Translations under genes and position numbers: made by a program
Shown: positions 8,563 through 57,220 of the stretch, in pieces
Position numbering within the stretch: position 1 is the stretch's first letter
Layout: every line of letters starts with the position of its first letter
Notes under the pieces: generated by a model
Database searches by the model: none
Told to the model about the DNA's origin: nothing
Seen by the model: only the letters and a program-made list of their open reading frames with translations
Source of the DNA: Sabellastarte sp. h YS-2021
Lineage: Eukaryota; Annelida; Polychaeta; Sabellida; Sabellidae
Length of the DNA: 64,000 nucleotides
Assembly: GCA_964017235.1 (NCBI GenBank)
Contig: OZ024938.1
Span: 10,159,454 to 10,223,453, forward strand
Reading direction: 5' to 3'

Positions 8563-8994
8563 AGTGGCAGAGCGAAGGTCACCTGACAAATCATTCTATA
8601 CCTTTGAGTGTCATAGGCAAAAAAATAGCATCAGAGATGCCCGTACCACACAGCCTGGGGAAATAGTTTCAACACCATGAGATATAGAAGTAGTGAAACA
8701 GTACACAGATTGGGATACTTTCAGAGCAGTGGCAGTGTCCTCCAAATAATGTTTAAGTAGAGAAAATAACATCTATTAGTAAGAGAAAGAAATTGCATGT
8801 AAAGAACTAGATTGGGCCAACTCGGCGCCAACATATCCCCAGACAGGTCATCACTCACGCCACAGGTTTTGATCGGAAATTTTTTAAAACATAATTACCC
8901 ATTATTATATGAACTTCAGCACATCAATCTACTCTGTTTATATCTCCCCAAGGAAGATGGTGTATCCCCAGACGCCGAATACATAACTCAAATT

Positions 8995-9275
8995 ATATTT
9001 TCAATCTTCCTGCAATGATAACTCTAAACCTATTTTCAAAGTATTTAAATGATTGATGATTGAATGTCCATTCTAAAATAATAATCCCAAAAGAGCATAT
9101 CTGTTTCTATATTTGTTGACAAATAAAATATTATTTTTAACTCAACTCATCATATTTTTCAATCTTCCTTCAAAGTATTTAAATGATTGATGATTCAATG
9201 TCCATTCTAAAATTCATAATCCCAAAAGCGCATATCTGTTTCTATATTTGTTCACAAATAAAATATTATTTAAAA
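8995..9275 (+). repeat. Two-copy tandem duplication, 134-bp offset
   Basis: TTCAAAGTATTTAAATGATT and the following roughly 100 bp occur at 9035 and again at 9169 with only a few mismatches (for example AAGAGC versus AAGCGC). Confidence 0.85.
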
Positions 9276-10019
9276 AAAAATTGTTTATATTATTATTTTA
9301 TTATATTATTTTTAGAATTTGCAAATTGTTTTCAGTTATTCATTTCCTCTATACCTATATATGTGGTCCATATATATGCAACCTAAATATGTGACACAAT
9401 CTCAGTTCTGACTCCCCTTTGTGTTATATGTAATGAAGCCCACCACCTCCCACCCCCACCCCTCTCCCCTTCTCCACACCTCTCTCACTATTACACAAGA
9501 TCTGCAACCCCATTGAGTTCTTTGTTTCTCATCTGATATCATTAAATACCATTGTTTATTTAGTGTCACTCAATATAGCTGGAGGTCCCAGAGGTGGGTG
9601 GGGGGAATCCGGGTGGGGGATGTGGGTTGAGCATAAATGGTAAACAAACAATCTATATAAAAGGGGTACTCAAATACAAAAAGAATTGAGAATTTTAAGT
9701 ATGTGATTATCAACTGAAATGAGTTCATAACTGTAGGAGCTGTGCCAAAATTAACTGAGGCAAGTTGAATAAAACTGGGCTAGTTGAGGGTTAAAAATCC
9801 CCTAGTTTTACTACATAAGGATATAATTTCATTAATATTGGGACTTAAAGCTCACTTAAAGTGTCCATTTTGTCTACTTGAATATGTTTAACCAGTTTCA
9901 TTTTAAAAGGTGAAAAACTCAGCAAGCAGAGGTATAACACACAAAAATAAGTTCTTAAAAGACTAAGATAGCCATAACATTATTAATATTCAAAATTTAA
10001 ATAGACAGGCATTTCCTTT

Positions 10020-11880
10020 TAAAAATTCAAAGATTTCAGCTCTATACCCCACATCGTTTGACAGTTACTGGGCTTTAAAGTGGCATAATATCCATAAATT
10101 GGGTTTCTGTGGGCATTTTACAATTGTTAAAGAGACCTTAGCAATTAAACTACAGATCTGAAACTTTTTGGGGGACATACATAACAAACAAAAATTATAT
10201 ATAATACAGTTTAAGACTTGTCACACTAAGCATTTCCAAATAACAGGGCAAAATACGGAAAAAATGTCAAAAAAGGCACTTGGGCGAGTGTCTATGGCCC
10301 TCATACACAGGTTAAATGTCTACTAAAAACCTTGATTTTCGGCATATGTAAAAAGGACATAATAATGCATTCCCAGATGGGATTTCAGCTCCATCAATCA
10401 CATAGTTTAACAGTTACAGGGCTTAAAGGTGGTAAAAAGTCCAAATATTGGGTCATTGTGGGCCTTTTAGAGATCTCGATGTGGCTTTCAAATTAAAGCT
10501 TCAGACTTAAAATTTGTTACATACTAAGATTACACATAGAATATGTATCTAATAAAGTTTGAAACTTCTCAGACTTACCATTTCCAAGTTACAGAGCAAA
10601 ATATGTGAAAAATGTCTTAAAAGGGTCACTCAGGTGGGTGTTTAAGGTCCTCATACACAGGTTAAATGTCTACTTGAAGCCTTGATTTTTGGCACATGTA
10701 AAAAGAACATAATAATGTATTCCCAGATGAGATTTCAGCTCTATCAGTCACATAGTTTAACAGTCACAGGCCTTAAAATTGGCAAAAAGTCCAAATATTG
10801 GGTCTTTATGGGGCCTTCTAGAGACCTAAATGTAGCCTTCAAATTAAAGCTTCAGACTTAAAATTTGTCACATACTAAGATTACACATAGAATATGCATC
10901 TAATACAGTTTGAAACTTCTTAGACTTACCATTTCCAAGTTACAGGGAAAAATATGTGAAAAATGTCTAAAAATGGTCACTCGGGTGGGGATTTATGGTC
11001 CTCATACACAGGTTAAATGTCTTCTTAAAGCCTTAATTTTTGGCACATATAAAAATAACATACTAATATCTTCTCAGATAGGATTTGAGCTCTATCAGTC
11101 ACATAGTTTGACAGTCACAGGGCTTAAAAGTAGCAAAAAGTCCAAATATTGGGTCTTTGGGAGCCTTTTAGAGACCTCAATTTGACCTTCAAAATTAAAG
11201 CTTCAGACTTAAAATCTGTTACATACTAAGATTACGCACAGAATATATATCTAATACAGTTTGAAACTTCTCAGACTTACCATTTCCAAGTTACAGGGAA
11301 AAAGATGTGAAAAATGTCTTATAAGGGTCACTCGGGTGGGTGTTTATGGTCCTGATACACAGGTTAACTGTCTATTAAAGGCCTAAATGTTGGGGCACAT
11401 ATAAGAAAACACATAGATATATTCCCAGATGATATTTAACTTAGATGAGAGACATAGTTTGAAAGCTACAGTGCTTGAAAGTGGCAAAAAGTGCATAAAT
11501 TGGGTCTCTGTGGGCACTTTTGAGACCTTAAGTCGACCCCTTTGGGTAAACCTACAGCCCTAAAATTTTCTACAGACAAGGATTACATATCAAAGTTATA
11601 CCTAGCGCAGTTTGAGACTCATCAGAATTATCACTTCCAAATTATAGGGCAAAATATGTGTAAAGTATAGCAAAAAATCCCTAAGTGGGGGTATTTATGG
11701 GCCTCAAACACAATTTTCTCCTCAACTTAAAGTCATGATTTTCGGCACATGTACTAAGAACATATTAATGTGTTGTCAGGTAAAATTTCAGCCAGCTGAG
11801 CATCATAGTTTGTGACCTACAGGGCTCTAAGTGGCCAAAAGTGCAATTTCTGACCTTAAGGTGGCCATAAGTTCTTTTTT
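10020..11880 (+). repeat. Tandem array, about 351-bp unit, about five copies
   Basis: The landmark AATTAAAGC recurs at 10,491, 10,842 and 11,193 (exactly 351 bp apart), with diverged copies one unit before and after. Each unit carries TTTGAAACTTCTCAGACTTA, CATACACAGGTTAAATGTCT and TCACATAGTTTAACAGTCAC. It forms the core of the nested element. Confidence 0.9.
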
Positions 11881-12022
11881 ACTGGGAGTTTAAGGTCACC
11901 TTAAAATAGGGATCTTCCTTTGGGCACCCTTAACATGTGTACCAAGTTTGAAAAAAAAATATTAATTTGTTTTTGAGTTATCGCATCCACAAGGAAATTT
12001 CTACGGCGGCGGCGGAATCCAA

Positions 12023-12051
12023 TATATCCCCGACTTTCGTCTGGGGATATA
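12023..12051. repeat. Right-end hairpin of the nested element
   Basis: Nine-bp perfect stem TATATCCCC/GGGGATATA plus an inner GAC/GTC pair. It coincides with the element border deduced from the restored host sequence. Confidence 0.85.
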
Positions 12052-12429
12052 ATAAGTACTAAAACAAGACAATTCAGTAAACTAAAAATTATGAAGCTTT
12101 AAGACTTCTCCCATTTTGATATTCATTTGTATGGTCGAATTATGGTTTGAATGTTTTGAATATTACCCATACATACAGATGTGGCAATACATGCTTTTAT
12201 GTGGAGTCGGGGCAAAACCCGTGGCTCACATGATGCAATACCAAATGTTATAATGGGAAGTTGCCAAAGTAAAATGGTTATGAATTCTGACTTTAACAGT
12301 GCTTAATCTACATCAAAAGACTTCCAAATGTGCAACAACCAAGATTCAAGTAAAAAAATATGAGAGATACAAGAGAGATAAAATAGTATCCGATATCCCC
12401 GTAGAGAGATAAAATAGCATCAGATATGC

Positions 12430-13135
12430 AAGATCAAAAGTTAAATCAAGGTCACACCATGACGTTGTACACCTATAACCCCCGACCAATGTCCCTACCA
12501 AATGTCAACTTCCTGCACCTTATGGTTTACGAAATATAGCCCAGATAAGGCATTATAGGTCAAGGTCACTACGGCTAAGTCAAAGGTCAAATCAAGTTCA
12601 CACCATGACATTTTACATCTACACACCCTAGCCAATGTCCCTACCCAGTATCAACTTCCTACACCTTACGGATTCCAAAATATACCCCGGACAAGATTTT
12701 ATCGGTCAAGGTCACTACGGCAAGGTCAAAGGTCAAATCAAGGTTACACCATGACTTTGCACACCTACACCGCCTAACCAATGTCCCTACTAAGTATCAA
12801 GTTCCTACACTATATGGTTGCAGAGATATAGCCCTGACAAGATTTTATAGGTCAAGGTCACTACAGCAAGGTCAAAGGACAAATCAATGTCACACCATGA
12901 CATTGCACACCTACAACCCCTAACCAATGTCCCAACCAAGTATCAACTTCCTACACCTTAAGGTTTCCGAGATATAGCCCGAACAAGATTTTATAGGTCA
13001 AGGTCACTATGGCAAGGTCAAAGGTCAACAAGGTCACACCATAACATTGCACACCTACACCCCCTAACCAATGTCCCTACCCTCGTATCAACTTCCTACA
13101 CCTTATGGTTTCCGAGATACAGGCCGGACAAACTT
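12430..13135 (+). repeat. 146-bp satellite array (copy B core)
   Basis: AGGTCAAGGTCACTA-GG recurs at 12,557, 12,703, 12,849 and 12,995, a constant 146-bp step. A unit runs GTTGCACACCTACACC, AACCAATGTCCCTACC, ATCAACTTCCTACACC, GATATAGCCC-GACAAG, TATAGGTCAAGGTCACTA, AAGGTCAAAGGTCAAATCA. It contains the nuclear-receptor-like motifs TCAAGGTCA and AGGTCAAAGGTCA (DR1). Confidence 0.95.
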
Positions 13136-13212
13136 CTTCCCGCCGCCCGCCCACCCACCCATCCGGACACCATGGGTGAAAACAATACCCTGACAGCCCT
13201 TAAGGGCTATGG

Positions 13213-14399: not shown

Positions 14400-14409
14400 T
14401 TTTACTTGT

Positions 14410-18480: not shown

Positions 18481-18879
18481 CAGTATTCAAAATAGCCAAT
18501 TACTCATTTATTTAATTAATTACTCACTCATCTATGACGCAATTCCCCCCAAAAGCAATCCCATACAAGCTATTAACCCAATGAACCTCCATACCAAATT
18601 TCAGAAAGCTAGGCTTAATAGCATTCCTTAAAATGTCTGGAAACCAAAGAGCTACTCAAAAGTAGCAAAGTAGCTATTACTCAGGTAGCTATAGAGCTAT
18701 TATCACCAAAAGCAATCCCATACAAGCTATTAACCCAATAAACCTGCATGCCAAATTGGGTAAAGATAGGATAAGAACTGTTGCCTAAAGCATCTGGAAA
18801 CCAAGTGGGACGCCGGACGCCGGATGGCGGAAAAAGCAAAAATAATATATCCACCCCCCAGTGGGGTGGACTTAATACT
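18481..18879 (+). repeat. Array-flanking spacer ending in a hairpin
   Basis: Contains AAAAGCAATCCCATACAAGC twice, then a GACGCCGGACGCCGGA run and a hairpin with 8-bp stems TCCACCCC/GGGGTGGA at 18,850-18,870. The same tail order, with the same AAAAAGCAAAAAT spacer, occurs at 19,735-19,842. I read this as the right end of a hairpin-ended element. Confidence 0.7.
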
Positions 18880-19410
18880 TTCCTACTACCCTACGGGTCA
18901 AAAATTCTGTCCAAATCGCTCTATCTCTTACGGTTTCTGAGATATTAAGAATTTTTCGTTTTTCGCAAAAATTCAAGATGGCCGCCAAAAGTGGCGAAAA
19001 TTGAAATTTTTTAATTTTGTACAGAATACTTTTCTACTACCCTGTGAGTCAAAAATTCTGTCCAAATCGCTCTATCTCTTACGGTTTCTGAGATCTTAAG
19101 ATTTTTTCGTTTTTCGCAAAAATTCAAATATGGCCGCCAAAAGTGGCGAAAATTGAAAATTTTCAATTTTGCACAGAATACTCTTCTACTACCCTGTGAG
19201 TCAAAAATTGTGTCGAAATCGCTCTATCTCTTACAGTTTCCAAGATATTAAGATTCTTTCATTTTTCGCAAAAAATTAAGATGGCCGCCAAAAGTGGCGA
19301 AAATTGAAATTTTTTAAAATTTTGTATAGAATACTTTTCTACTACCCTGTGGGTCAAAAATTCTGTCGAAATCGCTCTATCTCTTACGGTTTCTGAGATA
19401 TTAGCAAATT
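18880..19410 (+). repeat. GGCCGCC satellite, variant with 152-bp unit
   Basis: TACCCTGTG(A/G)GTCAAAAATT recurs at steps of 151-153 bp (18,895, 19,046, 19,198, 19,351). Units carry CGCTCTATCTCTTACGGTTT, AAGATGGCCGCCAAAAGTGG and GGCGAAAATTGAAA. It is closer to the array at 29.0-29.7 kb than to its neighbour. Confidence 0.9.
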
Positions 19411-19850
19411 ACTCAAAAGTAGTACTGAAAATACACAATGAAGTACCTAAATGGCTATTACTCATGTACTGACAAAGCTATCAGTCCCAAATGCAATACC
19501 AAGCGAGCTATGGACATAACAATCTTGTATTCAAAATTGTAGTAAAATATCTTTAATTATTTTGGCTTAAATGCACGGAAACCAATGGGTACTGAAAATA
19601 GCTGTACTTAAGTACTTTTTACTCAGTAAGCAAAAGAGGTACAACAGCCAAAAGCAATCCTAAGCAAGCTACTGACCCAATAAGCCTGCACACCAAATTT
19701 GGTGACAATAGCTCTAATACTTTTCCTTTAAATGAGCGGAAACCATGCGTGACGCCGGACATCGGACGCCTGACGCCGGACATCGGACAACGGACGGCAG
19801 AAAAAGCAAAAATATTATATATCCACCCCCCAGGGGGGTGGACATAATTA
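19411..19850 (+). repeat. Right end of a hairpin-ended element
   Basis: AGTAC-rich spacer, then GACGCCGGACATCGGACGCC, further GAC-rich repeats, AAAAAGCAAAAAT and a near-perfect palindrome with 10-bp arms (TCCACCCCCC/GGGGGGTGGA) at 19,822-19,842. Two frames read through this tail on opposite strands and are not credible. Confidence 0.75.
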
Positions 19851-20052: not shown

Positions 20053-20277
20053 GAGTAAGAAATCTAAAATTCGCCACATATCTGAAATTCGCCACATGTG
20101 AAAATACTAATAAAATAAATGAATTGTGGTGAGATTTGTTGACGGTATAGTAAATTAAGGCTTTTTGAACTGAAAAATACCAATTTTTAGACAAAAACAT
20201 AAGTTTCTTCATAAAATTAACTAAGGTTTTAGAGGTGGCGAATTTTAGATTCCTGCCAAATTTTAGATTTCTTACTC
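20053..20277 (-). mobile_element. 225-bp MITE, copy 2
   Basis: Same family and exact length as the copy at 4468, in opposite orientation, with TA on both sides. One subterminal GGCGAA motif is mutated to GCCAAA. The 122-codon frame across it is a translation of the MITE. Confidence 0.9.
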
Positions 20278-23535: not shown

Positions 23536-24580
23536 AAAAAAATAGCATTAGAGATGCCCGTACCCCACAGCCTGGGGAAATATTTTTCAACACCATGAGA
23601 TATAGAAGTAGACTAAGTGAAACAGTACATAGATATGGATACTTTCAGCACAGTGTCAGTTATATAAAGTTCCAAATAATGTTTAAATAGAGAAAGTAAA
23701 GTCCAAGGGAAAGAAAATGTACGTAAAGATGAAGTATTAAAACAAGACAATTCAATAGCAAGATGACAGCATGAATCAGTAAGCTAAAAATTATGATGCT
23801 GTAAAACTTATTAACTGGAGAATAGATGTCAATGGAAATAACTCAATTATGCAAAACTACATATAATATTCAGTTGCAGCAATCCATATACCTTTGTCAT
23901 AAGAGAAATATGTCTCAAAAATGGCAGATGAACACATTTTGGCAGAGCCAAAGCTAAAGGTAACACAATGATGCACACCTACACCCTAACCAATGTCCCT
24001 GCCAGGTATCAATCTTCTATACCTTACAGAATTCAAGAGCCCGGACAAGATTTTAAAACTCATGATCAATACAAAGTCAATGGTCAAATCAAGAGCACAC
24101 CATGATGTTGCACACCTACAATCCCCAACCAATGTCCCTACCAAGCATCAACTTCTTACACCTTACGGTTTCCAAGATATAGCCCGGACAAGATTTTATA
24201 GGTCAAGGTCAATACGGCAAGGTCAAAGGTCAAATCAAGGTCACACCATGACGTTGAACACCTACAACTCCCTACAAATATCCTTACCAAGTATCAACAT
24301 TCTACACCATCTGGTCTCTGAGATATAGCCTGGACAATATTTTATAGGTCAAGGTCAAAACAGTAAGGTCAAAGGTCAAATCAAGGTCACACCTTGACAC
24401 TGATCACCTACAACCCCCAACCAATGTCTATACCAAGTATCAACTTCCTACACCCTACGATTTCTGAGATGTAGCCCAGACAAGATTTTATAGGTTAAGG
24501 TCACTACAGCAAGGTCAAAGATCAAATCAAGGTCACACCATGACGTTGCACACCTACACCACCTGACCAATGTCCCTACC
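23536..24580 (+). mobile_element. 146-bp-repeat element, copy C (3' truncated)
   Basis: The complete head serves as the uninterrupted reference: AATAGCATTAGAGATGCCCG, CACAGCCTGGGG, ATGTACGTAAAGATGAAGTA, TTAAAACAAGACAATTCAAT, CTTTGTCATAAGAGAAATAT. About four core monomers follow from 23,960. It stops in mid-monomer at CCAATGTCCCTACCC with no tail. Several monomers hold perfect AGGTCAAAGGTCA. Confidence 0.85.
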
Positions 24581-29021: not shown

Positions 29022-29029
29022 AACAAGAC

Positions 29030-29735
29030 CACTGCCGTGGTATGTATCTCCCGCCGAGTACCGCAGGGGAAGAAATACTACATTGAAATTTTTCCCCTTT
29101 GCATAGGACACTGTTGTACCATCCTGCAGGTCGAAAATTCGCTTGAAACCGCTCTATCTGTTATGCTTTTCGAGATATTGACACTATTGACACAAAAATC
29201 CAAGATGGCCGCCGAAAGTGGCGAAAAATGAAATTTTTCCCCTTTGGACAGGACACTCTTGTATCACCCTGCGGGTCAAAAAATCGCTCGAAATCGCTCG
29301 ATCTGTTACGGTTTTCGAGATATTGACACTTTTTCATTTTCCGCAAAAATGTAAGATGGCCGCCAAAAGTGGCGAAAACTGAAATTTTCCCCCTTTGCAC
29401 AGGAGACTCTTGTACCACCCTGCAGGTCAAAAATTTGCTCAAAATCGCTCTATCTCTTACGGTTTTCGAGATATTGACACTTTTCTATTTTCCGCAAAAA
29501 TCCAAAAAGGCCGCCAAAAGTGGCGAGAATTGATATTTTACCCCTTTGCACAGGACATTCTTGTACTACCTTGCAGGTCAAAAATTCGCTCGAAATTGCT
29601 CTATCTCTTATGGTTTTCGAGATATTCACACTTTTTCATTTTTTTCCGCTAAAATCCAAGAAGGCCGCCAAAAGTGGCGAAAATTGAAATCTTTCCCCTT
29701 TGCATAGGACACTTTTGTACTACCCTGAAGGTCTA
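29030..29735 (+). repeat. GGCCGCC satellite, 151-bp unit
   Basis: (C/A)AGGTCAAAAATT-GCTCGAAAT recurs at 29,128, 29,273, 29,424, 29,575 and 29,729. Units include CGGTTTTCGAGATATTGACA and AAGATGGCCGCCAAAAGTGG. Confidence 0.9.
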
Positions 29736-29994
29736 AATGCAATAGTTTTCAAGTTACAAGTGATTTCACTCATGATGGAAGTTAGTGAAAAATCCAAAAG
29801 TAGCTATTGCTCACTTATCTATTGAGATAGACACCCAAGTTACTCACCATGTTGTTGCTGTGGGAAAAAGTAGGTGAATAACATATTTTAACAAAATGCT
29901 CTAAATACAATACTTTTCAAGTTATAATCGATTTAGTGCATGATTTCATTAATTTTAATGCATAAAAAAAATTATTTTAATAATTCATAAAAAA

Positions 29995-32900
29995 ACTTAA
30001 GCATGTGAAATATCTCCAAAATGTAGGTGAATGAGTTATTTGAGAAATACTGGCTATCTGCAATACTTTTTGTGATAATAGGCAATTACTCATTTTGAGT
30101 AGGTGAGTAATTAGATATGGATCTGAAAATTCACTAATTGAAAGTTCTCCCAAAATATAGGTGAAGTGAGTTATTTGAAAAATACTGGCTATCTGCAATA
30201 CTTTTAGAGATAATTCGCATTTACTCATTTTGAGTAGGTGAGTAATTACCTACAGGTTTCGAACTTCACCATGTGAAAGCTCTTCCAAAAGTAGATGAAT
30301 GAGTTATTTGATAAAAATTGGGTACCCACAATACTTTTAGAGATAATTAGCATTTACTCATTTTGAGTAGGTGAGTAATTACCTATGGGTCTGAAACTTC
30401 ACCATGTGACAGCTCTTCCAAAAGTAGATGAATGAGTTATTTGAGAAAAATTGACTATCTGCAATACTTTCAGAGATAATTCGCATTTACTCATTTTGAG
30501 TAGGTGAGTAATTAGCTACAGGTCTGAAACTTCACCAAGTGAAAGCTCTCCTAAAAGTACATGAATGAGTTATTTGAGAAAAATTGGCTATCTGCAATAC
30601 TTTTAGAGATAATTCGCAGTTACTCATTTTGAGTAGGTGAGTAATTAGCTACAGGTCTGAAACTTCACCATGTGAAAGCTCTCCCAAAAGTAGGTGAATG
30701 AGTTATTTGAGAAAAATTGGCTATATGCAATACTCTTAGAGATAATTCGCAGTTACTCATTTTGAGTAGGTGAGTTATTACCTATGGGTCTGAAACTTTG
30801 CCATGTGAAAGCTCTTCGAAAAGTAGATGAATGAGTTATTTGAGAAAAATTGGCTATCTGCAATACTTTTAGAGAGAATTCCCATTTACTCATTTTGAGT
30901 AGGCGAGTAAGTAGCTATGGGTCTGAAACTTCACAATGTGAAAGCTCTTCCAAAAGTAGATGAATGAGTTATTTGAGAAAAATTGGCTATCTCCTATACT
31001 TTTAGAGATAATTCGCATTTACTCATTTTGAGTAGGTGAGAAATTAGCTATGGGTCTGAAACTTCACCATGTGAAAGCTCTTCCAAAAGTAGATGAATGA
31101 GTTATTTGAGAAAAATTGGCTATCTGCAATACTTTTAGAGATAATTTGCATTTACTCATTTTGAGTAGGTGAGTAATTAGCTACGGGCGTGAAACTTCAC
31201 CAAGTGAAAGCTCTACCAAAAGTAGATGAATGAGTTATTTGAGAAAAATTGGCTATCTGCAATACTTTTAGAGATAATTAGCATTTACTCATTTTGAGTA
31301 GGTGAGAAATTAGCTACAGGTCTCACACTTCACCAAGTGAAAGCTCTTCCAAAAGTAGATGAATGAGTTATTTGAGAAAAATTGGCTATCTGCAATACTT
31401 TTAGAGATAATTAGCATTTACTCATTTTGAGTAGGTGAGTAATTAGCTACGGGTCTGAAACTTCACCAAGTGAAAGCTCTTCCAAAAGTAGGTGAATGAG
31501 TTATTTGAGAAAAATTGGCTATCTGCAATACTTTTAGAGAGAATTCGCATTTACTCATTTTGAGTAGGTGAGTAATTAGCTATGGGTCTGAAACTTCACC
31601 ATGTGAAAGCTCTTCCAAAAGTAGATGAATGAGTTATTTGAGAAAAATTGGCTATCTGCAATACTTTTAGAGATAAAGAAAAATTGGCTATCTGCAATAC
31701 TTTTAGAGAGCATTCGCATTTACTCATTTTGAGTAGGTGAGTAATTAGCTATGGGTCTGAAACTTCACCATGTGAAAGCTCTTCCAAAAGTAGATGAATG
31801 AGTTATTTGAGAAAAATTGGCTATCTGCAATACTTTTAGAGATAATTCGCATTTACTCATTTTGAGTAGGCGGGTAATTAGCTATGGGTCTGAAACTTCA
31901 CCATGTGAAAGCTCTTCCAAAAGTAAATGAACGAGTTATTTGAGAAAAATTGGCTATCTGCAATACTTTTCGAGATATTTAGCATTTACTCATTTTGAGT
32001 AGGTGAGAAATTAGCTACAGGTCTGACACTTCAAGTGAAAGCTCTCGCAAAAGTAGGTGAATGAGTTATTTGAGAAAAATTAGCTATCTTCTATACTTTT
32101 AGAGATAATTCGCATTTACTCATTTTGTGTAGGTGAGAAATTAGCTAGGGGTCTGAAACCTCACTAAGTGAAAGCTCTTCCAAAAGTAGATGAATGAGTT
32201 ATTTGAGAAAAATTGGCTATCTGCAATACTTTTAGACATAATTAGCATTTACTCATTTTGAGTAGGCGAGTAAGTAGCTATGGGTCTGAAACTTTACAAT
32301 GTGAAAGCTCTTCCAAAAGTAGGTGAATGAGTTATTTGAGAAAAATTGGCTATCTGCAATACTTTTAGAGAAAATTCGCATTTACTCATTTTGAGTAGGT
32401 GAGTAATTAGCGATGGGTCTGAAACTTCACCATGTGAAAGCTCTTCCAAAAGTACATGAATGAGTTATTTGAGAAAAATTGGCTATCTGCAATACTTTTA
32501 GAGATAATTAGCATTTACTCATTTTGAGTAGGTGAGTAATTAGCGATGGGTCTGAAACTTCACCAAGTGAAAGCTCTCCCAAAAGTAGGTGAATGAGTTA
32601 TTTGAGAAAAATTGGCTATCTGCAATACTTTTAGAGAGAATTCGCATTTACTCATTTTGAGTAGGTGAGTAATTAGCTATGGGTCTGAAACTTCACCATG
32701 TGAAAGCTCTTCCAAAAGTACATGAATGAGTTATTTGAGAAAAATTGGCTATCTGCAATACTTTTAGAGATAATTCGCAGTTACTCATTTTGAGTAGGTG
32801 AGTTATTACCTATGGGTCTGAAACTTTGCCATGTGAAAGCTCTTCGAAAAGTAGATGAATGAGTTATTTGAGAAAAATTGGCTATCTGCAATACTTTTAG

Positions 32901-35765
32901 AGAGAATTCCCATTTACTCATTTTGAGTAGGCGAGTAAGTAGCTATGGGTCTGAAACTTCACAATGTGAAAGCTCTTCCAAAAGTAGATGAATGAGTTAT
33001 TTGAGAAAAATTGGCTATCTCCTATACTTTTAGAGATAATTCGCATTTACTCATTTTGAGTAGGTGAGAAATTAGCTATGGGTCTGAAACTTCACCATGT
33101 GAAAGCTCTTCCAAAAGTAGATGAATGAGTTATTTGAGAAAAATTGGCTATCTGCAATACTTTTAGAGATAATTAGCATTTACTCATTTTGAGTAGGTGA
33201 GTAATTAGCTACGGGCGTGAAACTTCACCAAGTGAAAGCTCTACCAAAAGTAGATGAATGACTTATTTGAGAAAAATTGGGTATCTGCAATTCTTTTAGA
33301 GATAATTTGCATTTACTCATTTTGAGTAGGTGAGTAATTACCTACGGGTCTGAAACTTCACCAAGTGAAAGCTCTCTCAAAAGTAGATGAATGAGTTATT
33401 TGAGAAAAATTGGCTATCTGCAATACTTTTAGAGATAATTCGCATTTACTCATTTTGAGTAGGTGAGTAATTAGCTACGGGTCTGAAACTTCACCAAGTG
33501 AAAGCTCTCCCAAAAGTAGGTGAATGAGTTATTTGAGAAAAATTGGCTATATGCAATACTTTTAGAGATAATTCACATTTACTCATTTTGAGTAGGCGAG
33601 TAATTAGCTATGGGTCTGAAACTTCACCACGTGAAAGCTCTTCCAAAAGTAAATGAATGAGTTATTTGAGGAAAAAATTGGCTATCTGCAATACTTTTAG
33701 ACATAATTAACATTTACTCATTTTGAGTAGGTGAGTAACTAGCTACGCATCTGAAACTTAACCAAGTGAAAGCTCTCCCAAAAGTAGGTCAATGAGTTAT
33801 TTGAGAAAAAATGGCTACCTGCAATACTTTTAGAGATAATTCGCATTTACTTATTTTGAGGAGGTGAGTAATTAGCTACGGGTCTGAAACTTCACCAAGT
33901 GAAAGCTCTTCCAAAAGTAGGTGAATGAGTTATTTGAGAAAAATTGGCTATCTGCAATACTTTTAGAGAGAATTCGCATTTACTCATTTTGAGTAGGTGA
34001 GTAATTAGCTATGGGTCTGAAACTTCACCATGTGAAAGCTCTTCCAAAAGTAGATGAATGAGTTATTTGAGAAAAATTGGCTATCTGCAATACTTTTAGA
34101 GATAAAGAAAAATTGGCTATCTGCAATACTTTTAGAGAGCATTCGCATTTACTCATTTTGAGTAGGTGAGTAATTAGCTATGGGTCTGAAACTTCACCAT
34201 GTGAAAGCTCTTCCAAAAGTAGATGAATGAGTTATTTGAGAAAAATTGGCTATCTGCAATACTTTTAGAGATAATTCGCATTTACTCATTTTGAGTAGGC
34301 GGGTAATTAGCTATGGGTCTGAAACTTCACCATGTGAAAGCTCTTCCAAAAGTAAATGAACGAGTTATTTGAGAAAAATTGGCTATCTGCAATACTTTTC
34401 GAGATATTTAGCATTTACTCATTTTGAGTAGGTGAGAAATTAGCTACAGGTCTGACACTTCAAGTGAAAGCTCTCGCAAAAGTAGGTGAATGAGTTATTT
34501 GAGAAAAATTAGCTATCTTCTATACTTTTAGAGATAATTCGCATTTACTCATTTTGTGTAGGTGAGAAATTAGCTAGGGGTCTGAAACCTCACTAAGTGA
34601 AAGCTCTTCCAAAAGTAGATGAATGAGTTATTTGAGAAAAATTGGCTATCTGCAATACTTTTAGACATAATTAGCATTTACTCATTTTGAGTAGGCGAGT
34701 AAGTAGCTATGGGTCTGAAACTTTACAATGTGAAAGCTCTTCCAAAAGTAGGTGAATGAGTTATTTGAGAAAAATTGGCTATCTGCAATACTTTTAGAGA
34801 AAATTCGCATTTACTCATTTTGAGTAGGTGAGTAATTAGCGATGGGTCTGAAACTTCACCATGTGAAAGCTCTTCCAAAAGTACATGAATGAGTTATTTG
34901 AGAAAAATTGGCTATCTGCAATACTTTTAGAGATAATTAGCATTTACTCATTTTGAGTAGGTGAGTAATTAGCGATGGGTCTGAAACTTCACCAAGTGAA
35001 AGCTCTCCCAAAAGTAGGTGAATGAGTTATTTGAGAAAAATTGGCTATCTGCAATACTTTTAGAGAGAATTCGCATTTACTCATTTTGAGTAGGTGAGTA
35101 ATTAGCTATGGGTCTGAAACTTCACCATGTGAAAGCTCTTCCAAAAGTAGATGAATGAGTTATTTGAGAAAAATTGGCTATCTGCAATACTTTTAGAGAT
35201 AATTCGCATTTACTCATCTTGAGTAGGCGAGTAATTAGCTATGGGTCTGAAACTTCACCATGTGAAAGCTCTTCCAAAAGTAAATGAATGAGTTATTTGA
35301 GAAAAATTGGCCATCTGCAATACTTTTCGAGATATTTAGCATTTACTCATTTTGAGTAGGTGAGAAATTAGCTACAGGTCTGAAACTTCACCAAGTGAAA
35401 GCTCTCGCAAAAGTAGGTGAATGAGTTATTTGAGAAAAATTGGCTATCTTCTATACTTTTAGAGATAATTCGCATTTACTCATTTTGTGTAGGTGAGAAA
35501 TTAGCTAGGGGTCTGAAACCTCACCAAGTGAAAGCTCTTCCAAAAGTAGATGAATGAGTTATTTGAGAAAAATTGGCTATCTGCAATACTTTTAGACATA
35601 ATTAGCATTTACTCATTTTGAGTAGGTGAGTAACTAGCTACGCATCTGAAACTTAACCAAGTGAAAGCTCTCCCAAAAGTAGGTCAATGAGTTATTTGAG
35701 AAAAAATGGCTACCTGCAATACTTTTAGAGATAATTCGCATTTACTTATTTTGAGGAGGTGAGTA
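29995..35765 (+). repeat. 133-bp satellite array, about 43 units, with higher-order duplications
   Basis: TTACTCATTTTGAGTAGG recurs at 30,487, 30,620, 30,753, 30,886 and 31,019, exactly 133 bp apart, and so on to the end. Each unit holds a dyad (ACTCA/TGAGT) nested in a longer inverted repeat (TTACTCA/TGAGTAA, 11-nt spacer). Segments 31,440-32,718 and 33,869-35,147 are nearly identical at a 2,429-bp offset; 30,735-31,218 recurs at a 2,028-bp offset. A broken unit (GAGATAAAGAAAAATTGG) marks both long copies. Confidence 0.95.
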
Positions 35766-37290
35766 AGTAGGCCAAAGTTCACCAAACCATTTTCCCCTTA
35801 GCATAGGATACTCTAGTACTACCCTGTGGGTCAAAAATTTGCTCGAAATTGCTCTATATCTTACGGTTTGAGAGATATTTCTGATTTTTCACATTTTCAC
35901 TAAAAGTAGCAATAAAGTAGCCATTACTCACTTGTACATCGAGCAACAGTTGTGAAACTTAAATATGTTACAGTTCACAAAAAAGTACATGAACAACATA
36001 TTTGAGAGAAATTGTGTAGCTGCAATACTTTTGAAGATATAAGCCATTTACTCATTATGGTTATCATTAAAAATTGAAAAAGTAGCTATTACTCACTTAG
36101 CTATGGAGATACACTTCCAAATTACTGACCATGTTGTAGCTGTTGAGAAAGTAGCTGAACATCATATTGGAACAAAATTGTGTAGCTGCAATACTTATGA
36201 AGATATAAGCCATTTACTCATTGACAGTTATAAGTCATATAATTATATTAGGTAAAAGCGCTATTACTCACTCAAAAGTAGGCCAAAGTTCACCAAACTT
36301 TTCCCCCCTTAGCAATAGGATACTCTAGTACTACCCTGTGGGTCAAAAATTTGCTCGAAATTGCTCTATATCTTACAGTTTGAGAGATATTTCTGATTTT
36401 TCACATTTTCACTAAAAGTAGCAATAAAGTAGCCATTACTCACTTGTACATTGAGCAACAGTTGTGAAACTTAAATATGTTACAGTTCACAAAAAAGTAC
36501 ATGAACAACATGTTTGAGAGAAATTGTGTAGCTGCAATACTTTTGAAGATATAAGCAATTTACTCATTATGGTTATCATTAAAAATTGAAAAAGTAGCTA
36601 TTACTCACTTAGCTATACAGATACACTTCCAAACTACTGGCCATGTTGTAGCAGTGGAGAAAGTAGCTGAACAACATATTGGAACAAAATTGTGTAGCTG
36701 CAATACTTTTGAAGATATAAGCCATTTACTCATTATGGTTATCATTAAAAACTGAAAAAGTAGCTATTACTCACTTAGCTACGGAGATACACTTCCAAAC
36801 TACTGACCATGTTGTAGCAGAGGAGAAAGTAGCCGAACAACATATTGGAACAAAATTGTGTAGCTGCAATACTTTTGAAGATATAAGCCATTTACTCATT
36901 ATGGTTATCATTAAAAATTGAAAAAGTAGCTATTACTCACTTAGCTATGGAGATACACTTGCAAACTACTGACCATGTTGTAGCTGTGGAGAAAGTAGCT
37001 GAACAACATATTGGAACAAAATTGTGTAGCTGCAATACTTATGAAGATATAAGCCATTTACTCATTATGGTTATAATTAAAAATTGACAAAGTAGCTATT
37101 ACTCACTTAGCTATGGAGATACACTTCCAAACTACTGACCATGTTGTAGCTGTGGAGAAAGTAGCTGAACAACATATTAGAACAAAATACTGTAAATGCA
37201 ATAGTTTCAGAGTTATAAGCCATATAATTATATTAGCTAAAATAGCTATTACTCACTCAAAAGTAGGCCAAAGTTCACCAAACCCCAAAA
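35766..37290 (+). repeat. 166-bp satellite array preceded by two ~509-bp composite units
   Basis: AAGTAGCTATTACTCACTTA recurs at 36,593, 36,759, 36,925 and 37,091 (166 bp). GTAGGCCAAAGTTCACCAAA recurs at 35,768 and 36,277, marking a larger composite unit that also includes a GGTCAAAAATTTGCTCGAAA block from the GGCCGCC satellite. The 86-codon frame at 37,113 is a read-through of this array. Confidence 0.9.
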
Positions 37291-37376
37291 ATATTGAAGA
37301 GCAAAAAAATTCATTAGGACTTGTGATTTACCAAAAATGTGTAACTGTAGTAGTTTCAGAGAAAACTGCGTGACAC

Positions 37377-37431
37377 ACGCACGCACGCACGCACGCACAC
37401 ACGCACGCACGCACGCACGTACACACGCACA
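37377..37431 (+). repeat. (ACGC)n microsatellite
   Basis: Alternating CACGCACGC and CACACGC steps immediately before the right hairpin of the 8.45-kb element. It occupies the place of the GAC-rich repeat in the other elements. Confidence 0.95.
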
Positions 37432-37474
37432 TGGTGCAAATTATGATCTCCCTCCGGCGAGCCGGGCGGGAGAT

Positions 37475-40079
37475 AAAAAATCAACAACTAATGGTTGTAT
37501 TTAATTGCCTTGCTTAAATCATTTCCTTCCAATAAAACAGCACTAAACACAACTAGTGATAATATTTGAACATTATCTTTTATATATTATTTTTCTTCAT
37601 TTACTCAAGTTCAAATTATGCAAGGTGCAGATCCTAAAGCTAGCTTTTTCACATTGGATGAATCACTTATTCATCTGTTCATATTATGTCATTTTCTCAG
37701 CTCTTTATCAGCTGGATCTGTCACAGAGTTTAATTCTGTATAGGTTGTATGATACATCATGAAAGTGGAACCGAAGTATACACAATTAAATTTATGTGAT
37801 CAAGTGATACTCTGCTGCAAACAACAGCAAGGTTTGTTGACAGTTTGGAACATAGTAATCTGCAGCTATCTGGGTCAATGGGTCCTTTCAGAGGACAAGG
37901 ATGCCAGTAAGATAACCTTGTTCTAAAAAGGAAACCTGCTAATTAAATTTCAGATGTATTTCAATGGTCACAATTTTATACTGCATAACAAGTTATAGAA
38001 AAACTTTCATTTGTTTCAGAACAAACTTATGGTTAGCTGATTAAATTAGCTGGGCTAAAAAATAATGAGAAAAATTATTTTTCAAATAGGAAAAGAATTA
38101 AAGATTAAATTTAAATGTAAGTTGGCCTTAAAGTTAAATCAAGGTCCTGACTAATTGTATTTAAGGATAAAATCTGGTAACTTCACACACTAGATATCCA
38201 ATTTCAGGGGCATAAATTACACCTAGCAATTTAATAGATTTGTGTCACTAGATAGTAATATATTCTCTCCTAAATGCAAAATATAAAACTGCAGCAATAA
38301 TTAGTTGGATTTTGATCAATTTATATCTCACAATCAACCTTTATTTTCTCTATGTTTTCATTTTTTTCTTTATAGTTTAAAATGTGTAGATTAAAAACTG
38401 GAAATCAGAAAATTCACTCAGCTTTGCCTTTTTCTTTTTTTTTCACACAGGAGGCAACAAAAAATGAGAAAGGTTCCTTTAAGACTAGCACCAAAATCTA
38501 AAAATCTAATACAAGTTGCAAATGGTCTGTATATGTGTATAAAACTGTTGAATTTATTGTTAAACAATCACTAATTATGCCATTGGTGTTCAGATCTCCA
38601 AAATGAGTGCACCAAATTCATACAAAGAACAAGGACCAGATTCAGGGCTGAATTCTCGGTGCAAAAAGAGCCATCATCAGAGGACAACGGAAAGTAGGTA
38701 AACGTCGTTCATGAAGAAGAGAGTTCAGGACACAATTACATTAGCATTCAGCCTAGCCAAAGTTGACGTGTTTTACACACTGCATTAGTGTCAAGAGGTA
38801 ACCTTCTTGGATTATAAACACAAGCGATATATCTCTTTATCTTTAACATTGATCTTTAGTACAACAAATTATAAACACCAGCTTACAATGCATGTGTAAA
38901 TATAGTAATATATTTATATGCTTATATATAAAATGCATCACAGCCTCTGGATAAATAAAAGTTAATGGCGAATAAAACTATGTAAGCAAATGAATTAATG
39001 GTCATTAGAAGACTGACAGAAGTAGACGAGGGAAAAGGGGGGACAAAAATTATACCAGGCACCAACTAGTATTGTTAAGACTCCACTTTCTGTGACTGAC
39101 TTTTATGCACTGAGGAAGTTTTGCATTAAATGGGCACCAGTTAACAGAGAATCAGGACATCGGGTGAACTTCTGCAGTACACGCAGAAAAAAGTGGGGAG
39201 GAGAAAGAGGGAGGTGTGTTGCTTGCAGGCCTATAAAATGCAAAGGAGAGTTTGGAAGATGGTGACGTAATTGCCAGCCAATCCGATCCTGGGATATTAA
39301 AATAGATTATTGGAGAAGGGAGGGCCCCAGTGTTGGTGTTTGTCTATAAAAGATTCGGGGCGAGGAGAGAGAGGGGGGGGGGGAACCACAGGGAAATGGC
39401 TGGGGAGGGGAGGGTATATAAAGATGATAAAAGAGATTTATAAAATAGTGATGATAAGTGAGTAGTGTTATACTTTTTATGAATGATGTTACCAATCATT
39501 GTGCCTGGGGTTGGCACCTGGGCAGAGCTTGCGATAATAAACATGTGACTATGTACATATAAATAGAAAGGGTTCCAGTGAACCTGTGAGACAGACAGCG
39601 GATCTGACCAACAGGAATATATATAAATCTTGAATCTGACGGATACCACATTAGAACTGTCCAGGGAGTAGGTACTTCACATATCGTCAGAGGACAACTG
39701 AAACAAGCAGATTTCATAATCTTCATTGAAAACTGACTAAATATTGGAGAAATTTATCAAAGAAATGGTTAAGTGATCATAGATTACTCAATGGTAAATT
39801 TTGTCAGTGGTGTACAACTTTTGAAAGGGAACAAAAGCTGTTTGAAGAAGTTAGAAATCCACCAGACTAGTAATACAAATCTCGTACTATTTGCCATACT
39901 CTGAAAGCAAACCCGCTTTTGAAACAGAATTTCTACTGAAACTGTGACGACAATTTTGAATATTCATTGTATAAAATCTACATCACCTTTTCTGTTAATA
40001 ATTCATACTGACGCCTTTAAAGGTAAGTTTATTCAAGATTTATAATACTTTGCATAAGAATTTCTATGTTATAAATAGT
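37475..40079. other. No recognisable gene
   Basis: Contains a G-run (39,370-39,380) and overlapping minus frames at 39,307-39,726 that resemble no family. TATAAAA-like strings near 39,230 and 39,412 are not backed by any downstream gene. Confidence 0.35.
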
Positions 40080-40122
40080 AACAAGAGCACTGGGAAAGTG
40101 CATATCTCCGTCCAGGCATGCA
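40080..40122 (+). repeat. Element left end with hairpin, truncated by a MITE
   Basis: AACAAGA, then a 5-bp stem GCACT/AGTGC with loop GGGAA, then ATATCTCCGTCC. It repeats the left-end arrangement of the elements at 29.0 and 54.2 kb with a different stem. The MITE copy begins 21 nt after the stem. Confidence 0.55.
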
Positions 40123-40346
40123 GAGTAAGAAATCTAAAATTCGCCAGGAATCTAAAATTCGTCACCTCTAAAACCTTAGTTAATTTTATGAAGAAAATGA
40201 TGTTTTGTCTTCAAATTGGTATTTTTCAGTTCAAAAAGCCTTAATTTACTATACAGTCAACAAATCTCACCACAATTCATTTATTTTATTCGTATTTTAA
40301 CATGTGGCGAATTTCAGATATGTGGTGATTTTTAGATTTCTTACTC
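40123..40346 (+). mobile_element. 225-bp MITE, copy 3
   Basis: 224 bp, same orientation as the copy at 4468. The right flank is TA; the left flank has decayed to CA. One base is lost internally. Confidence 0.9.
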
Positions 40347-40528: not shown

Positions 40529-40753
40529 GAGTAAGAAATCTAAAATTCGCCACATATCTGAAATTCGCCACATGTCAAAATACTAATAAAATAAATGAAT
40601 TGTGGTGAGATTTGTTGACTGTATAGTAAATTAAGGCTTTTGGAACTGAAAAATACCAATTTTTAGACAAAAACATCATTTTCTTCATAAAATTAACTAA
40701 GGTTTTAGAGGTGGCGAATTTTAGATTCCTGGCGAATTTTAGATTTCTTACTC
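40529..40753 (-). mobile_element. 225-bp MITE, copy 4, inverted to copy 3
   Basis: Full length with TA on both sides. With copy 3 it makes a 225-bp inverted repeat with a 182-bp spacer. A transcript across both would fold into a long duplex. Confidence 0.9.
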
Positions 40754-52300: not shown

Positions 52301-52331
52301 AGGGTATTTCGCTATAAAATTGAATATAAAC

Positions 52332-53000
52332 AGTATTTTTCAATAATAAGTAGTTAAAAGCACTTTTAAGTTTGGCTACCCTCATTTGACCTTGAAGACA
52401 GGGCCCAAGGTCAAATCTGACCACATCAGAAGATTCGCAGCCCATGATTTCTTATTGGTTGGTTTCACATTGCAAACCTCTAGGACCAATAACAAGTGAG
52501 TTATAAGCACTTTTAAGTTCGGCTATCCTCAATTGACCTTCAAGGAGAGGCCCAAGGTCAAGTCTGACCACATGAGAAGATTTCCACCCCATGATTTCCC
52601 ATAGGTTGGTTTCACATTCTAAACCTCTAGGACCCATAATAAGTGAGTTATAAGCACTTTTAAATTTGTCTATCCTCGTCTGACCCTGAAGGAGGGGCCC
52701 AAGGTCAAATCTGACCACATAAGAAGATTTGCAGCCCATGATTTCCTATAGGTTGGTTTACCATCCCAAATGTCTAGGACCAATAATAAGTGAGTTATAA
52801 GCACTTTTAACTTTGGCTATCCTCGTTTGACCTTGAAGGAGGGGCCCAAGGTCAAATCCCACCACACCACAAGATTCCCAGCCCATGATTTCCTACAGGT
52901 TGGTTTACCATCCCAAACCTCTAGGACCAATAATAAGGGAGATATAAGCACTTTTCATGACTGAAAAGAAACGTCAATGGTGTACTTTGGCACTATGTCT
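52332..53000 (+). repeat. 147-bp satellite array, four to five units
   Basis: AGTTATAAGCACTTTTAA steps: 52,507, 52,654, 52,801, 52,948 (147 bp). Each unit holds TTTGACCTTGAAGGAGGGG then CCCAAGGTCAAATCTGACC, an inverted pair of TCAAGGTCA-like half-sites, plus CCCATGATTTCCTA and CCTCTAGGACCAATAATAAG. It begins nine bases after the DIRS edge. Frames in it are periodic artefacts. Confidence 0.9.
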
Positions 53001-53020
53001 TTTAGTTCAAATTGGGTACT

Positions 53021-53160
53021 TAGTGACCTTAGTGGTTAGCAAGTCTGTGGCATCCAAGTACAGACTGTCACCTCTGTGTGGGTTCGAGTTCCACAAGTGG
53101 CAATGCTGAGGATCTGTCTCAGTATGACCCTGGCTGTTGAATGAGACATAAAAACACCAA
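53021..53160 (+). repeat. tRNA-derived SINE
   Basis: A-box-like TGACCTTAGTGG and B box GGTTCGAGTTCC. Body CTGTCACCTCTGTGTGGGTT is shared with 26,388-26,525, and the tail is GTTGAATGAGACATAAAAAC. Confidence 0.75.
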
Positions 53161-53815: not shown

Positions 53816-53819
53816 TCTA

Positions 53820-54180
53820 TGCCTTAAACAGACAAACAAACAGACGGAATTACACCAATTTCAAAGTAACTGAGCTATGATGGTGATCTAACTCCCTGTC
53901 AAGTTTGAATTCGATTGGACAAAGCATTTTTGAGTTAGAGTCCGGTAACGCAAATATTGATGGACAAATGGACAAAAAACAAACAAACGAATGGACAGAA
54001 ATTACACCAATCTCGAAAGGAACCTAGCTATGATGGTGATCTATCTCCCTGTCAAGTATGAATATGATAGGACAAAGTGTTTTTGAGTTAGAGTCCGGAA
54101 ATAAAAATGTTGACAGACAGACGGACATCGGACATATCATTCTAATAGGCAGGTTGGTTAAACACAACCTGCCTAAAAAT
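53820..54180 (+). repeat. Right part of a hairpin-ended element
   Basis: Two diverged copies (about 175 bp apart) of GAGCTATGATGGTGATCTA, CTCCCTGTCAAGT, TTTTTGAGTTAGAGTCCGG. Then GACAGACAGACGGACATCGG and a hairpin with 9-bp stem AGGCAGGTT/AACCTGCCT at 54,147-54,174. The next element starts a few bases on. No left end was found. Confidence 0.7.
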
Positions 54181-54449
54181 AAACAAGAGGAGAGTGCCCG
54201 TGAACGGGCACTGTGTCAGCTGACTGAGTGTTTTTGATTTGTGAAGGTGATTAGAGGACAGAATAATTATCAGGAAAAGGGCTGTACAGAAATACAGTAA
54301 ATGGTAACTGAACAGCAAGTTCGAAAGAAATTCCGAAGCTGACAGAAGAAAAGGATAAAAAAGTTGTGCCCTGTAAATGGTATTATGAAGGAAAATAAGG
54401 TAATTGTTTAAGTGTAAAAAATAGGTTAAAACATATTTAAAGAAATACT

Positions 54450-55035
54450 ACAAATGCAATATCCTCGTTCGACCTTGAAGAAGGGGTCCAAGGTCAAATC
54501 TAACCACACAAATACATTCCCAGCCCATGATTTCCTATGGTTTACCATTCCAAACCTCTAGGACCAATTATAAATGAGTTATAAGCACTTTTAAGCTTGG
54601 CTGTCCTCATTTGACCTTGAAGGAGGGGTCCAAAGGTCAAATCTGACCATACCAAAAGATTCCGAGCCAATGATTTCCTATGGGATGGTTTACCATCCCA
54701 AATCTCTGTCACCAATAATAAGCGAGTTGTAGGCACTTTCAATTTTCGCTATCCTCATTTGACCTTGAAGGAGGGTTCCAAGGTCAAATCGGACCATATC
54801 AACAGATTCACAGCCCATGATTTCCTGTCTGTTTACCATCCCAAACCTCTGGGACCAATAATAAGCGAGTTATAAGCACTTTTAAGTTTGGCTATCCTTG
54901 TTTGACCTTGAAGGAGGGGTCATTGAAGGTCAAATCTGACCACACCAAAAGATTCCCACCCCATGATTTCCTACAGGTTGGTTTATCATCCCAAACCTCT
55001 AGGATCAATAATAAGGGAGATATAAGCACTTTTCA
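54450..55035 (+). repeat. 147-bp satellite array, second locus
   Basis: Same unit as 52,332-53,000 (GCAC landmarks 54,585, 54,733, 54,876, 55,026). The transition out of the array (ATATAAGCACTTTTCATGAC) is identical at both loci. Confidence 0.9.
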
Positions 55036-55039
55036 TGAC

Positions 55040-56830
55040 TGACAAAAACACCTGTGGCGGCCATCTTGTTTCTCAAAATGAGGCCAAAAATATTCCCAGA
55101 CAACATTTTATGGTTATTAATATATACTGCAAACTTAAGAAAGCTAGCTATAATATTTTTTTTCATCAGAGCAGTAATGGTGAAATCTCTCTCTACACAC
55201 TGCGGCTATCCAGTGGATACAATGATTTACTCAACAGTGAGAACCTGAAAGTAGCTATTGCTCAGCTATGCCATGACATAGAGGTCTGCAATTTCACTAT
55301 GTTATAGCTGACCAAAAATTCTGTGAATAACATATTTAACAAATTACTCTAAATGTAATAGTTTTCAAGTTACAACTGATTTACTCAACAGTGAGAACCT
55401 CAAAGGAACTATTACTCAGCTATGCAATGAGCTACATGTCTGAAATTTTACTATGTTATAGCTAACCCAAAAGTAGGTGAACAACATATTTAAGCAAACT
55501 ACTGTAAATGCAATAGTTTTCAAGCTACAACTGATTTACTCAATAGTGAGAACCTGAAAATAGCTATTGCTCCGCTATGCCATGAGCTATAGGTCTGTAA
55601 TTTCACTATGTTATAGCTGACCCAAAAGTAGGTGAACAATATATTTTAACAAAATACTCCAAATGCAATATTTTTCAAGTTATAGCTGATTTACTCAACA
55701 GTCAGTACCTGAGAATAGCTATTGCTCAGTTGTGCCATGAGCTATAGGTCTATAATTTCACTATGTTATAGCTGACCCAAAAGTAGCTGAATAACATATT
55801 TGCACAAATTTCTGTAAATGCAATAGTTTTCCAATTATAACTGATTTACTCAACAGTGAGAACTTCAAAGTAGCTATTACTCAGCTATGAAATGAGCCAC
55901 AGGTCTGAAACTTCACAATGTTATAGCTGACCCCAAAATAGGTGAATAACATATTGAAACAAAATACTCTAAATGCAATAGTTTTCAAGTTATAAGTGAT
56001 TTACTCAACAGTGATAACCTAAAAGTAGCTATTACTCAGCTATGCCATGAGCTACAAGTCTGAAATTTTACTATGTTATAGCTGGCCCAAAAGTAGCTGA
56101 ATAACATATTTATACGAAATTCTCTAAATGCAATAGTTTTTAAGTTACAAGTGATTTTACTCATGATGGAAGTTACTGAAAAGCCCAAAAGTAGCTATTA
56201 CTCACTTAGCTATTGAGACAGAAACCCAACTTACTCACCATATTGTAGCTATGAAAAAAGTAGCTGAATAACATATTTTAACAAAATGCTCTAAATGCAA
56301 CACTTTTCAAGTTATAAGTGATTTACTCAACAGTGATAACCTAAAAGTAGCTATTACTCAGCTATGCCATGAGCTACAGGTCTGAAATTTTACTATGTTA
56401 TAGCTGACCCAAAAGTAGCTGAATAACATATTTATACGAAATTCTCTAAATGCAATAGTTTTCAAGTTATAAGCGATTTACTCAACAGTGATAACCTAAA
56501 AGTAGCTATTACTCAGCTATGCCATGAGCTACAGGTCTGAAATTTCACTATGTTATAGCTGGCCCAAAAGTAGCTGAATAACATATTTATACGAAATTCT
56601 CTAAATGCAATAGTTTTTAAGTTACAAGTGATTTTACTCATAATGGAAGTTACTGAAAAGCCCAAAAGTAGCTATTACTCACTTAGCTATTGAGACAGAC
56701 ACCCAACTTACTCACCATATTGTAGCTATGAAAAAAGTAGCTGAACAACATATTTTCACAAAATGCTGTAAATGCAACACTTTTGAAGTTATAAGTGATT
56801 TAGTGCATGATTTCATGAATTTTAATGCAT
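55040..56830 (+). repeat. 155-bp satellite array related to the 166- and 133-bp arrays
   Basis: CTATGTTATAGCTGACC recurs at about 153-156 bp steps (55,298, 55,451, 55,605, 55,761, 55,915, 56,071 and on). Shared vocabulary with the 8.45-kb element includes AAAGTAGCTATTACTCA, AAAAGTAG-TGAATAACATATT, AATGCAATA-TTTTCAAGTTA and GATTTACTCA. Frames in it are artefacts. Confidence 0.9.
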
Positions 56831-57220
56831 TAAAAATTATTAAAAAAATTTATTTAAAAAAAAGTAAGACAGATCCAGGTCTCATACTCACACAACAGAA
56901 TCTACCTCTGGCCTAGTACATATATGCAAGATATGAGAGAAATCCCTGCAATAGTCACTGAGAAAATTGTGATAAAAAGTTGAAATTTTCACACTTTTGG
57001 TGGGGGTACCCCCCTTGTAATGTCTCTAGCAAACAGACAAACAGACAGATTTGCATGCCTTGAACAATTTTTCATCCTCGATAGATAAGGTATCTTTTAA
57101 AAAAAAACAGCATGTCTCTAGGCCTTGTAGTTTTGGAGAAGAAGTTGTTCACGCGGACACGGACGCCCACGCCGCAGAGTGATGACATAATGTCAGCTGA
57201 CTGACAAGTCAGCTGACATA

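Follow-up and report, generated by a model that had tools for sequence, protein, structure and literature searches.

Several families of satellite-carrying elements with Helitron2-type ends in the genome of the polychaete Sabellastarte sp. h YS-2021

Introduction

Helitron2 transposons carry hairpins at both ends together with asymmetric terminal inverted repeats (ATIRs), the 5′ ATIR lying 0-2 bp from the 5′ end and forming a hairpin with the bases behind it, and the 3′ ATIR lying ~20-30 bp from the 3′ end, directly before the 3′ hairpin (Bao and Jurka 2013, PMC3627910). Helitron2/Helentron-type non-autonomous elements (HINEs) have been described with subterminal inverted repeats (subTIRs), a 3′ palindrome and tandem repeats (Thomas and Pritham 2014, PMC4067079), and those of the oyster are built from a left part with a subTIR, an inverted repeat (IR) and a microsatellite, a satellite-like core, and a right part with a subTIR and a palindrome, with related flanks placed around unrelated repeats (Vojvoda Zeljko 2020, PMC7492417). 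In Helraiser, a Helitron1 element, a hairpin near the 3′ end functions in transposition (PMC4778049). Compensatory changes are reported for two related Culex Helitron2 elements (PMC3627910), and among the papers listed in our literature searches on Helitron ends and covariation, none went beyond that paper on this point. Here, we analyze a stretch of 64,000 nucleotides of Sabellastarte sp. h YS-2021 (contig OZ024938.1, positions 10,159,454 to 10,223,453; the whole of this stretch is referred to as the window), and find that it contains elements which are very probably non-autonomous Helitron2/Helentron-type rolling-circle transposons, i.e., HINEs, belonging to several families and lying mostly on the minus strand.

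Results

Three complete elements with the end structure of HINEs

The window contains three complete elements, A (8805-12051), B (29022-37475) and D (54182-57219), which as numbered share the plan AACWAGA, hairpin, short repeat, tandem arrays, microsatellite, right hairpin. The initial annotation took the AACWAGA end as a left end; on the minus strand it reads TCTTGTT or TCTAGTT and is the 3′ end, with the right end as the 5′ end, so that the order becomes 5′ ATIR within a 5′ hairpin, microsatellite, tandem core, 3′ ATIR, 3′ hairpin, TCTWGTT. The features of the three putative HINEs are as follows.

8805..12051, minus strand: element A, complete, 5′ end at the high coordinate, 12-bp inverted ATIR pair
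8805..8832, minus strand: element A 3′ end, TCTAGTT motif and 3′ hairpin (DNA fold -4.7 kcal/mol, matched by 8 of 200 shuffles)
8833..8844, minus strand: element A 3′ ATIR, inverted match to 12039-12050
10198..11528, minus strand: tandem core of element A with period 351; a further, short array lies at 9035-9280
12023..12051, minus strand: element A 5′ hairpin with 5′ ATIR 12039-12050, GGC microsatellite adjoining (boundary read in locus L027, see below)
29022..37475, minus strand: element B, complete, 11-bp inverted ATIR pair (29045-29055 with 37465-37475)
29022..29055, minus strand: element B 3′ end, TCTTGTT, hairpin CCAC/GTGG and 3′ ATIR 29045-29055 (reading and ATIR match)
29082..37223, minus strand: element B tandem cores 29082-29737, 29993-35770 and 35982-37223
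37376..37475, minus strand: CACG microsatellite (37376-37430) and 5′ hairpin (37446-37475) of element B, the latter with 5′ ATIR 37465-37475 (repeats and ATIR match)
54182..57219, minus strand: element D, complete, 12-bp inverted ATIR pair (54214-54225 with 57207-57218)
54182..54225, minus strand: element D 3′ end, TCTTGTT, 8-bp hairpin 54193-54212 and 3′ ATIR 54214-54225 (fold -9.2 kcal/mol, matched by 0 of 200 shuffles)
54460..56802, minus strand: element D tandem cores 54460-55033 and 55218-56802
57190..57219, minus strand: element D 5′ hairpin with 5′ ATIR 57207-57218 (hairpin and ATIR match)

The outer arm of each right hairpin is, as first noticed in the initial annotation, the inverse of the left repeat, over 12 (A), 11 (B) and 12 bp (D), and these lengths fall within the 8-15 bp of HINE ATIRs. 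In all three elements the 5′ ATIR lies inside the 5′ hairpin at the 5′ end, a microsatellite near the 5′ end and a tandem core are present, and the 3′ ATIR is followed by the 3′ hairpin, which folding supports for families A, D and E and for the window copy of B, but not for the B consensus. The distance from the outer end of AACWAGA to the 3′ ATIR is 28 (A), 23 (B) and 32 bases (D), against a published 20-30. Among the 32 AACWAGA sites on both strands of the window, three have an inverted 11-bp match in a downstream hairpin within 10 kb, versus 47 of 4000 random positions; an earlier chance estimate for this match (1041 of 2000 random positions) was too loose and was replaced by this strict definition.

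End families are repeated genome-wide and their ends pair

At least four families (A, B, D and E) can be distinguished by their ends. We searched the 1.786 Gb assembly for the 3′-end pattern of each family on both strands, with the reversed pattern as a control, and these counts are lower bounds for the repeats. Family A gave at least 5120 + 5267 matches (~10,400) versus 91 + 100 (191) for the reversed pattern; no reversed match was found for family B (at least 1248 + 1185, i.e., 2433), family D (at least 4259 + 4302, i.e., 8561) or family E (at least 235 + 224, ~460). The 5′ hairpin of D, a palindrome counted once per strand, has at least 6394 sites in the genome.

The relation between the two ends was examined for the 62 D 3′ ends on contig C1 between 0.79 and 17.04 Mb. 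A D 5′ hairpin lies within 10 kb on the expected side of 38 of these 62 ends and on the wrong side of 8, while random placement gave a mean of 1.8 and a maximum of 9 in 1000 trials. For the 44 ends with a partner within 20 kb, 13 distances fall at 2.8-3.2 kb, close to that of the window copy (3.0 kb). The 24 ends without a partner within 10 kb may belong to elements that are truncated, diverged beyond the exact pattern, or longer. Since D 3′ ends and 5′ hairpins pair on the expected side, the borders coincide for this family, which was the check set in the initial annotation.

A family-A element interrupts a Helitron replicase gene

The domain Helitron_like_N (PF14214) has 24 matches in the genome and none in 14 control genomes. 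Four loci (L027, L029, L030 and L032) contain the same gene in copies that are 99% alike, and five other loci compared did not match it; the L030 stretch contains DUF6570 together with Helitron_like_N. In L027, homology to the gene ends after TTGTTTATT, and the sequence continues with ATATCCCCAGAC..., which is the family-A 5′ hairpin; the three intact copies provide the empty site, with the insertion point between TTGTTTATT and TTGG. This Helitron replicase (RepHel) gene copy is thus interrupted by a family-A element that begins at its 5′ ATIR within a T run, and the site agrees with the TT or T-rich target of HINEs. Because of the T run, the exact boundary base is uncertain by 1-2. Past the junction, within the part of L027 covered, gene homology does not resume and no family-A 3′ end occurs. 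Over 1506 bases the insert and element A share 97.7% identity, and a copy in L013 reaches 98.8% over 1245 bases.

The 3′ stems differ between families, and no covariation was found within B, D and E

Out of 20000 shuffles, stems as long as those observed arose 3308 times for A, 3603 for B, 56 for D and 11 for E, and consensus folds were equaled by 8 (A), 105 (B), 0 (D) and 0 (E) of 200 shuffles, with 6 for the window copy of B. The 3′ hairpin is therefore well supported in D and E, moderately in A and weakly in B.

The stems of the window had been described as different yet paired, in a way that looked like compensatory change. The difference stands, in that four families have different stems at the same position, and this fits recognition of structure without proving it; compensatory change is not supported within families B, D and E. 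Using lists of the first places by coordinate, mainly on contigs C1-C3 and hence a non-random sample, we found a paired fraction of 0.796 versus 0.794 shuffled in family E (428 of 1000 shuffles as high; 93 listed rows, after 7 of the 100 listed places were dropped for other length), 0.889 versus 0.884 in family B (729 of 2000 shuffles; 27 distinct listed rows, after dropping 8 of other length and 1 unaligned) and 0.914 versus 0.912 in family D (1120 of 2000 shuffles; 16 distinct 20-base stretches, 7 of other length dropped). Double changes in B, D and E stems are paired no more often than in shuffles, and the GCACT and GCATT stems, two of those listed in the initial annotation, show a one-sided change yielding G.T and no compensated pair. 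Copies within families decay independently and the stem differences are between families; the published HINE/Helitron2 structure permits such differences.

AACWAGA alone is a poor marker

Each proposed left end is present, AACTAGA at 8805 and AACAAGA at 202, 29022, 40080 and 54182, followed by a stretch able to form a hairpin; the bulged stem at 8805 was missed by an ungapped hairpin scan and found by folding. However, most of the 105 AACWAGA sites in the window and loci L001-L023 lack this end structure behind them, and the motif alone is therefore a poor marker. A loose count of hairpins (stem ≥4) behind ten 7-mers, namely AACAAGA, AACTAGA and eight words that were similar or permuted, gave 21 of 59 for AACAAGA versus, e.g., 32 of 90, 19 of 46 and 24 of 68 for other 7-mers, with no clear excess. 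The word AACAAGA occurs 244,500/243,599 times in the genome versus 169,207/166,720 for the reversed word; we rejected this excess as a measure of HINE ends, since most sampled copies lack the end structure.

Tandem cores are partly related

The interiors had been called unrelated, which holds only in part, as arrays lying between different ends are 62-84% alike. For example, the B array 29082-29737 matches 18874-19403 at 77% over 519 bases, the D array 54460-55033 matches 52341-52955 at 84% over 583 bases, and the B array 35982-37223 matches the D array 55218-56802 at 68% over 802 bases. These arrays common to different ends show that the interiors are partly related. A separate family of 146-base tandem arrays, ~81% alike, occurs at 12428-13131, 23975-24580 and 27723-28152, with no end structure found nearby.

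Further ends and other features of the window

All six right hairpins reported earlier (12023, 18850, 19822, 37446, 54147 and 57190) are present and adjoin GGC-, GAC- or CACG-type short repeats. The ends outside the three complete elements are listed here.

202..224, minus strand: family-E 3′ end in a decayed state, 5′ partner not found (23 bases, 91% identical to the E end)
18847..18871, minus strand: 5′ hairpin G, no 3′ partner found (hairpin reading)
19819..19846, minus strand: 5′ hairpin H, no 3′ partner found (hairpin scan; related copy in L015 at 492-520)
40080..40113, minus strand: 3′ end resembling family E, no 5′ partner found (family assigned by eye from a listed copy; BLAST did not report 40080)
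54146..54175, minus strand: 5′ hairpin of another element, I (hairpin scan)
58932..58964, plus strand: family-E 3′ end, absent from the initial annotation (91% identity over 33 bases)

The count of five independent left stems is thus reduced, with 202 matching family E by BLAST and 40080 resembling it by eye. Hairpins G and H are alike, lie ~970 bases apart and have related arrays before each. Six bases separate hairpin I from the 3′ end of element D; the two share one orientation and form a head-to-tail pair (54146-54225). A terminal inverted repeat (TIR) element lies 11 bases beyond the end at 40080-40113.

A 221-base element with long inverted ends (GAGTAAGAAATCTAAAATTCGCC) occurs at 4470-4690, 20055-20275, 40125-40344 and 40531-40751, and at 6654-6873 of L009; the four window copies are 96-99% identical and the L009 copy 87%, and by eye three of the four have TA on both sides. 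A dispersed repeat at 458-571 recurs at 85-98% in L006, L009, L010, L017 and L043, and partly in L011. The sequence at ~1800-1930, inverted at ~3190-3370, resembles a short interspersed nuclear element derived from 5S rRNA; it has no Rfam match at gathering score. Rfam at this score gave no match in the window as a whole, and ARAGORN reported nothing there. A 580-codon open frame at 59777-61519 (plus strand) matches the UDP-glucuronosyl/glucosyltransferase family PF00201 (E 7.3e-93). In L019, the same 9-bp palindrome (GGAGATATG/CATATCTCC) occurs at 6426-6449 and 6687-6710, 261 bases apart, and this pair is perhaps a further hairpin-ended family.

Discussion

The ends of these elements, read on the minus strand, match the published end structure of HINEs and Helitron2, and what the window adds is therefore further families of a known kind, not a new system. 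The initial annotation rightly guessed a relation to Helitron/Helentron HUH elements, whose Helitron2/HINE plan fits; its statement that no exact description existed does not hold, since the end structure appears in PMC3627910, PMC4067079 and PMC7492417. The closest likeness is to the oyster Cg_HINE elements (PMC7492417), which have the same subTIR pair, IR forming a 5′ hairpin, GTC-type microsatellite, tandem core and 3′ palindrome, the same T-rich/TT target, and modules common to or swapped between elements; this likeness is one of layout. Helitron2 (PMC3627910) shares the 5′ ATIR making the terminal 5′ hairpin and the 3′ ATIR before the 3′ hairpin, whereas the elements here are without a RepHel gene and the 3′ ATIR of family D is placed 32 bases from the end. 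DINE-1 and the mite HINEs (PMC4067079) share subTIRs, IR, microsatellite, central repeats, 3′ stem-loop and TT target, but the host here is neither insect nor mite, and again the likeness is one of layout. Canonical Helitron1 was rejected: although it too has a hairpin near the 3′ end, the elements here lack 5′ TC and 3′ CTRR, their ends read ATATCC... and TCTWGTT, and the target is a T run, not the junction between A and T. A TIR transposon or miniature inverted-repeat transposable element (MITE) was likewise rejected, as the inverted repeat is terminal at one end and lies 22-32 bases inside the other.

Several observations weigh against the HINE assignment. D ends on the wrong side exceed random placement, an excess that probably stems from clustering and nesting; the consensus hairpin of family B has no folding advantage over shuffles; and covariation, sought within B, D and E, was not found. 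A single junction has been read, that of family A in L027, on its 5′ side, and no RepHel element with these ends was seen in the 20 RepHel loci, with ~1.5 kb covered on each side. This negative result for RepHel elements, together with four families that have little sequence in common beyond AACWAGA, could also point to a distinct, undescribed structure-recognized mobile system merely resembling Helitron2, but we consider this improbable, as every testable HINE feature is present, including the T-run target and both ATIR positions. The cores are tandem arrays and true TIR elements occur in the window, as would be the case if these were foldback/TIR transposons (MITEs), or satellite arrays with chance hairpins beside them; yet the ends are asymmetric, the same two ends recur in fixed orientation across thousands of copies, and the pairing of D ends contradicts such an origin, which we regard as very improbable. 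A chance origin, given how frequent both the word AACAAGA and short hairpins are, would agree with the small excess in the loose hairpin count and with the many AACWAGA sites lacking such an end, but the full end patterns, with no or few control matches, and the pairing of D ends refute chance for families A, B, D and E, leaving it a negligible probability.

For HINEs, the mechanism can be drawn by analogy from the wider family: a RepHel protein (HUH nuclease and helicase), supplied in trans, would initiate at the 5′ end, transfer one strand and halt at the 3′ end, where the 3′ hairpin, perhaps with ATIR-ATIR pairing, would mark the end point, as proposed in PMC3627910; the tandem cores would be satellite-like passengers. 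It is possible, though rather doubtful, that one RepHel enzyme moves families with unrelated 3′ stems and ATIRs by reading TCTWGTT, a hairpin of any sequence and a matched ATIR pair, with end sequences replaceable wholesale and cores exchanged between families.

We would regard the families described here as new on their structure, rather than on absence from databases. In this 1.8 Gb genome they add at least four HINE families, two of which exceed 8,000 matches each, and demonstrate that cores are common to different HINE ends. The autonomous partner of the satellite-carrying HINEs of the oyster is stated to be unresolved in PMC7492417; as the Sabellastarte genome contains both near-identical RepHel copies and recent HINEs, the link between HINEs and RepHel is testable here.

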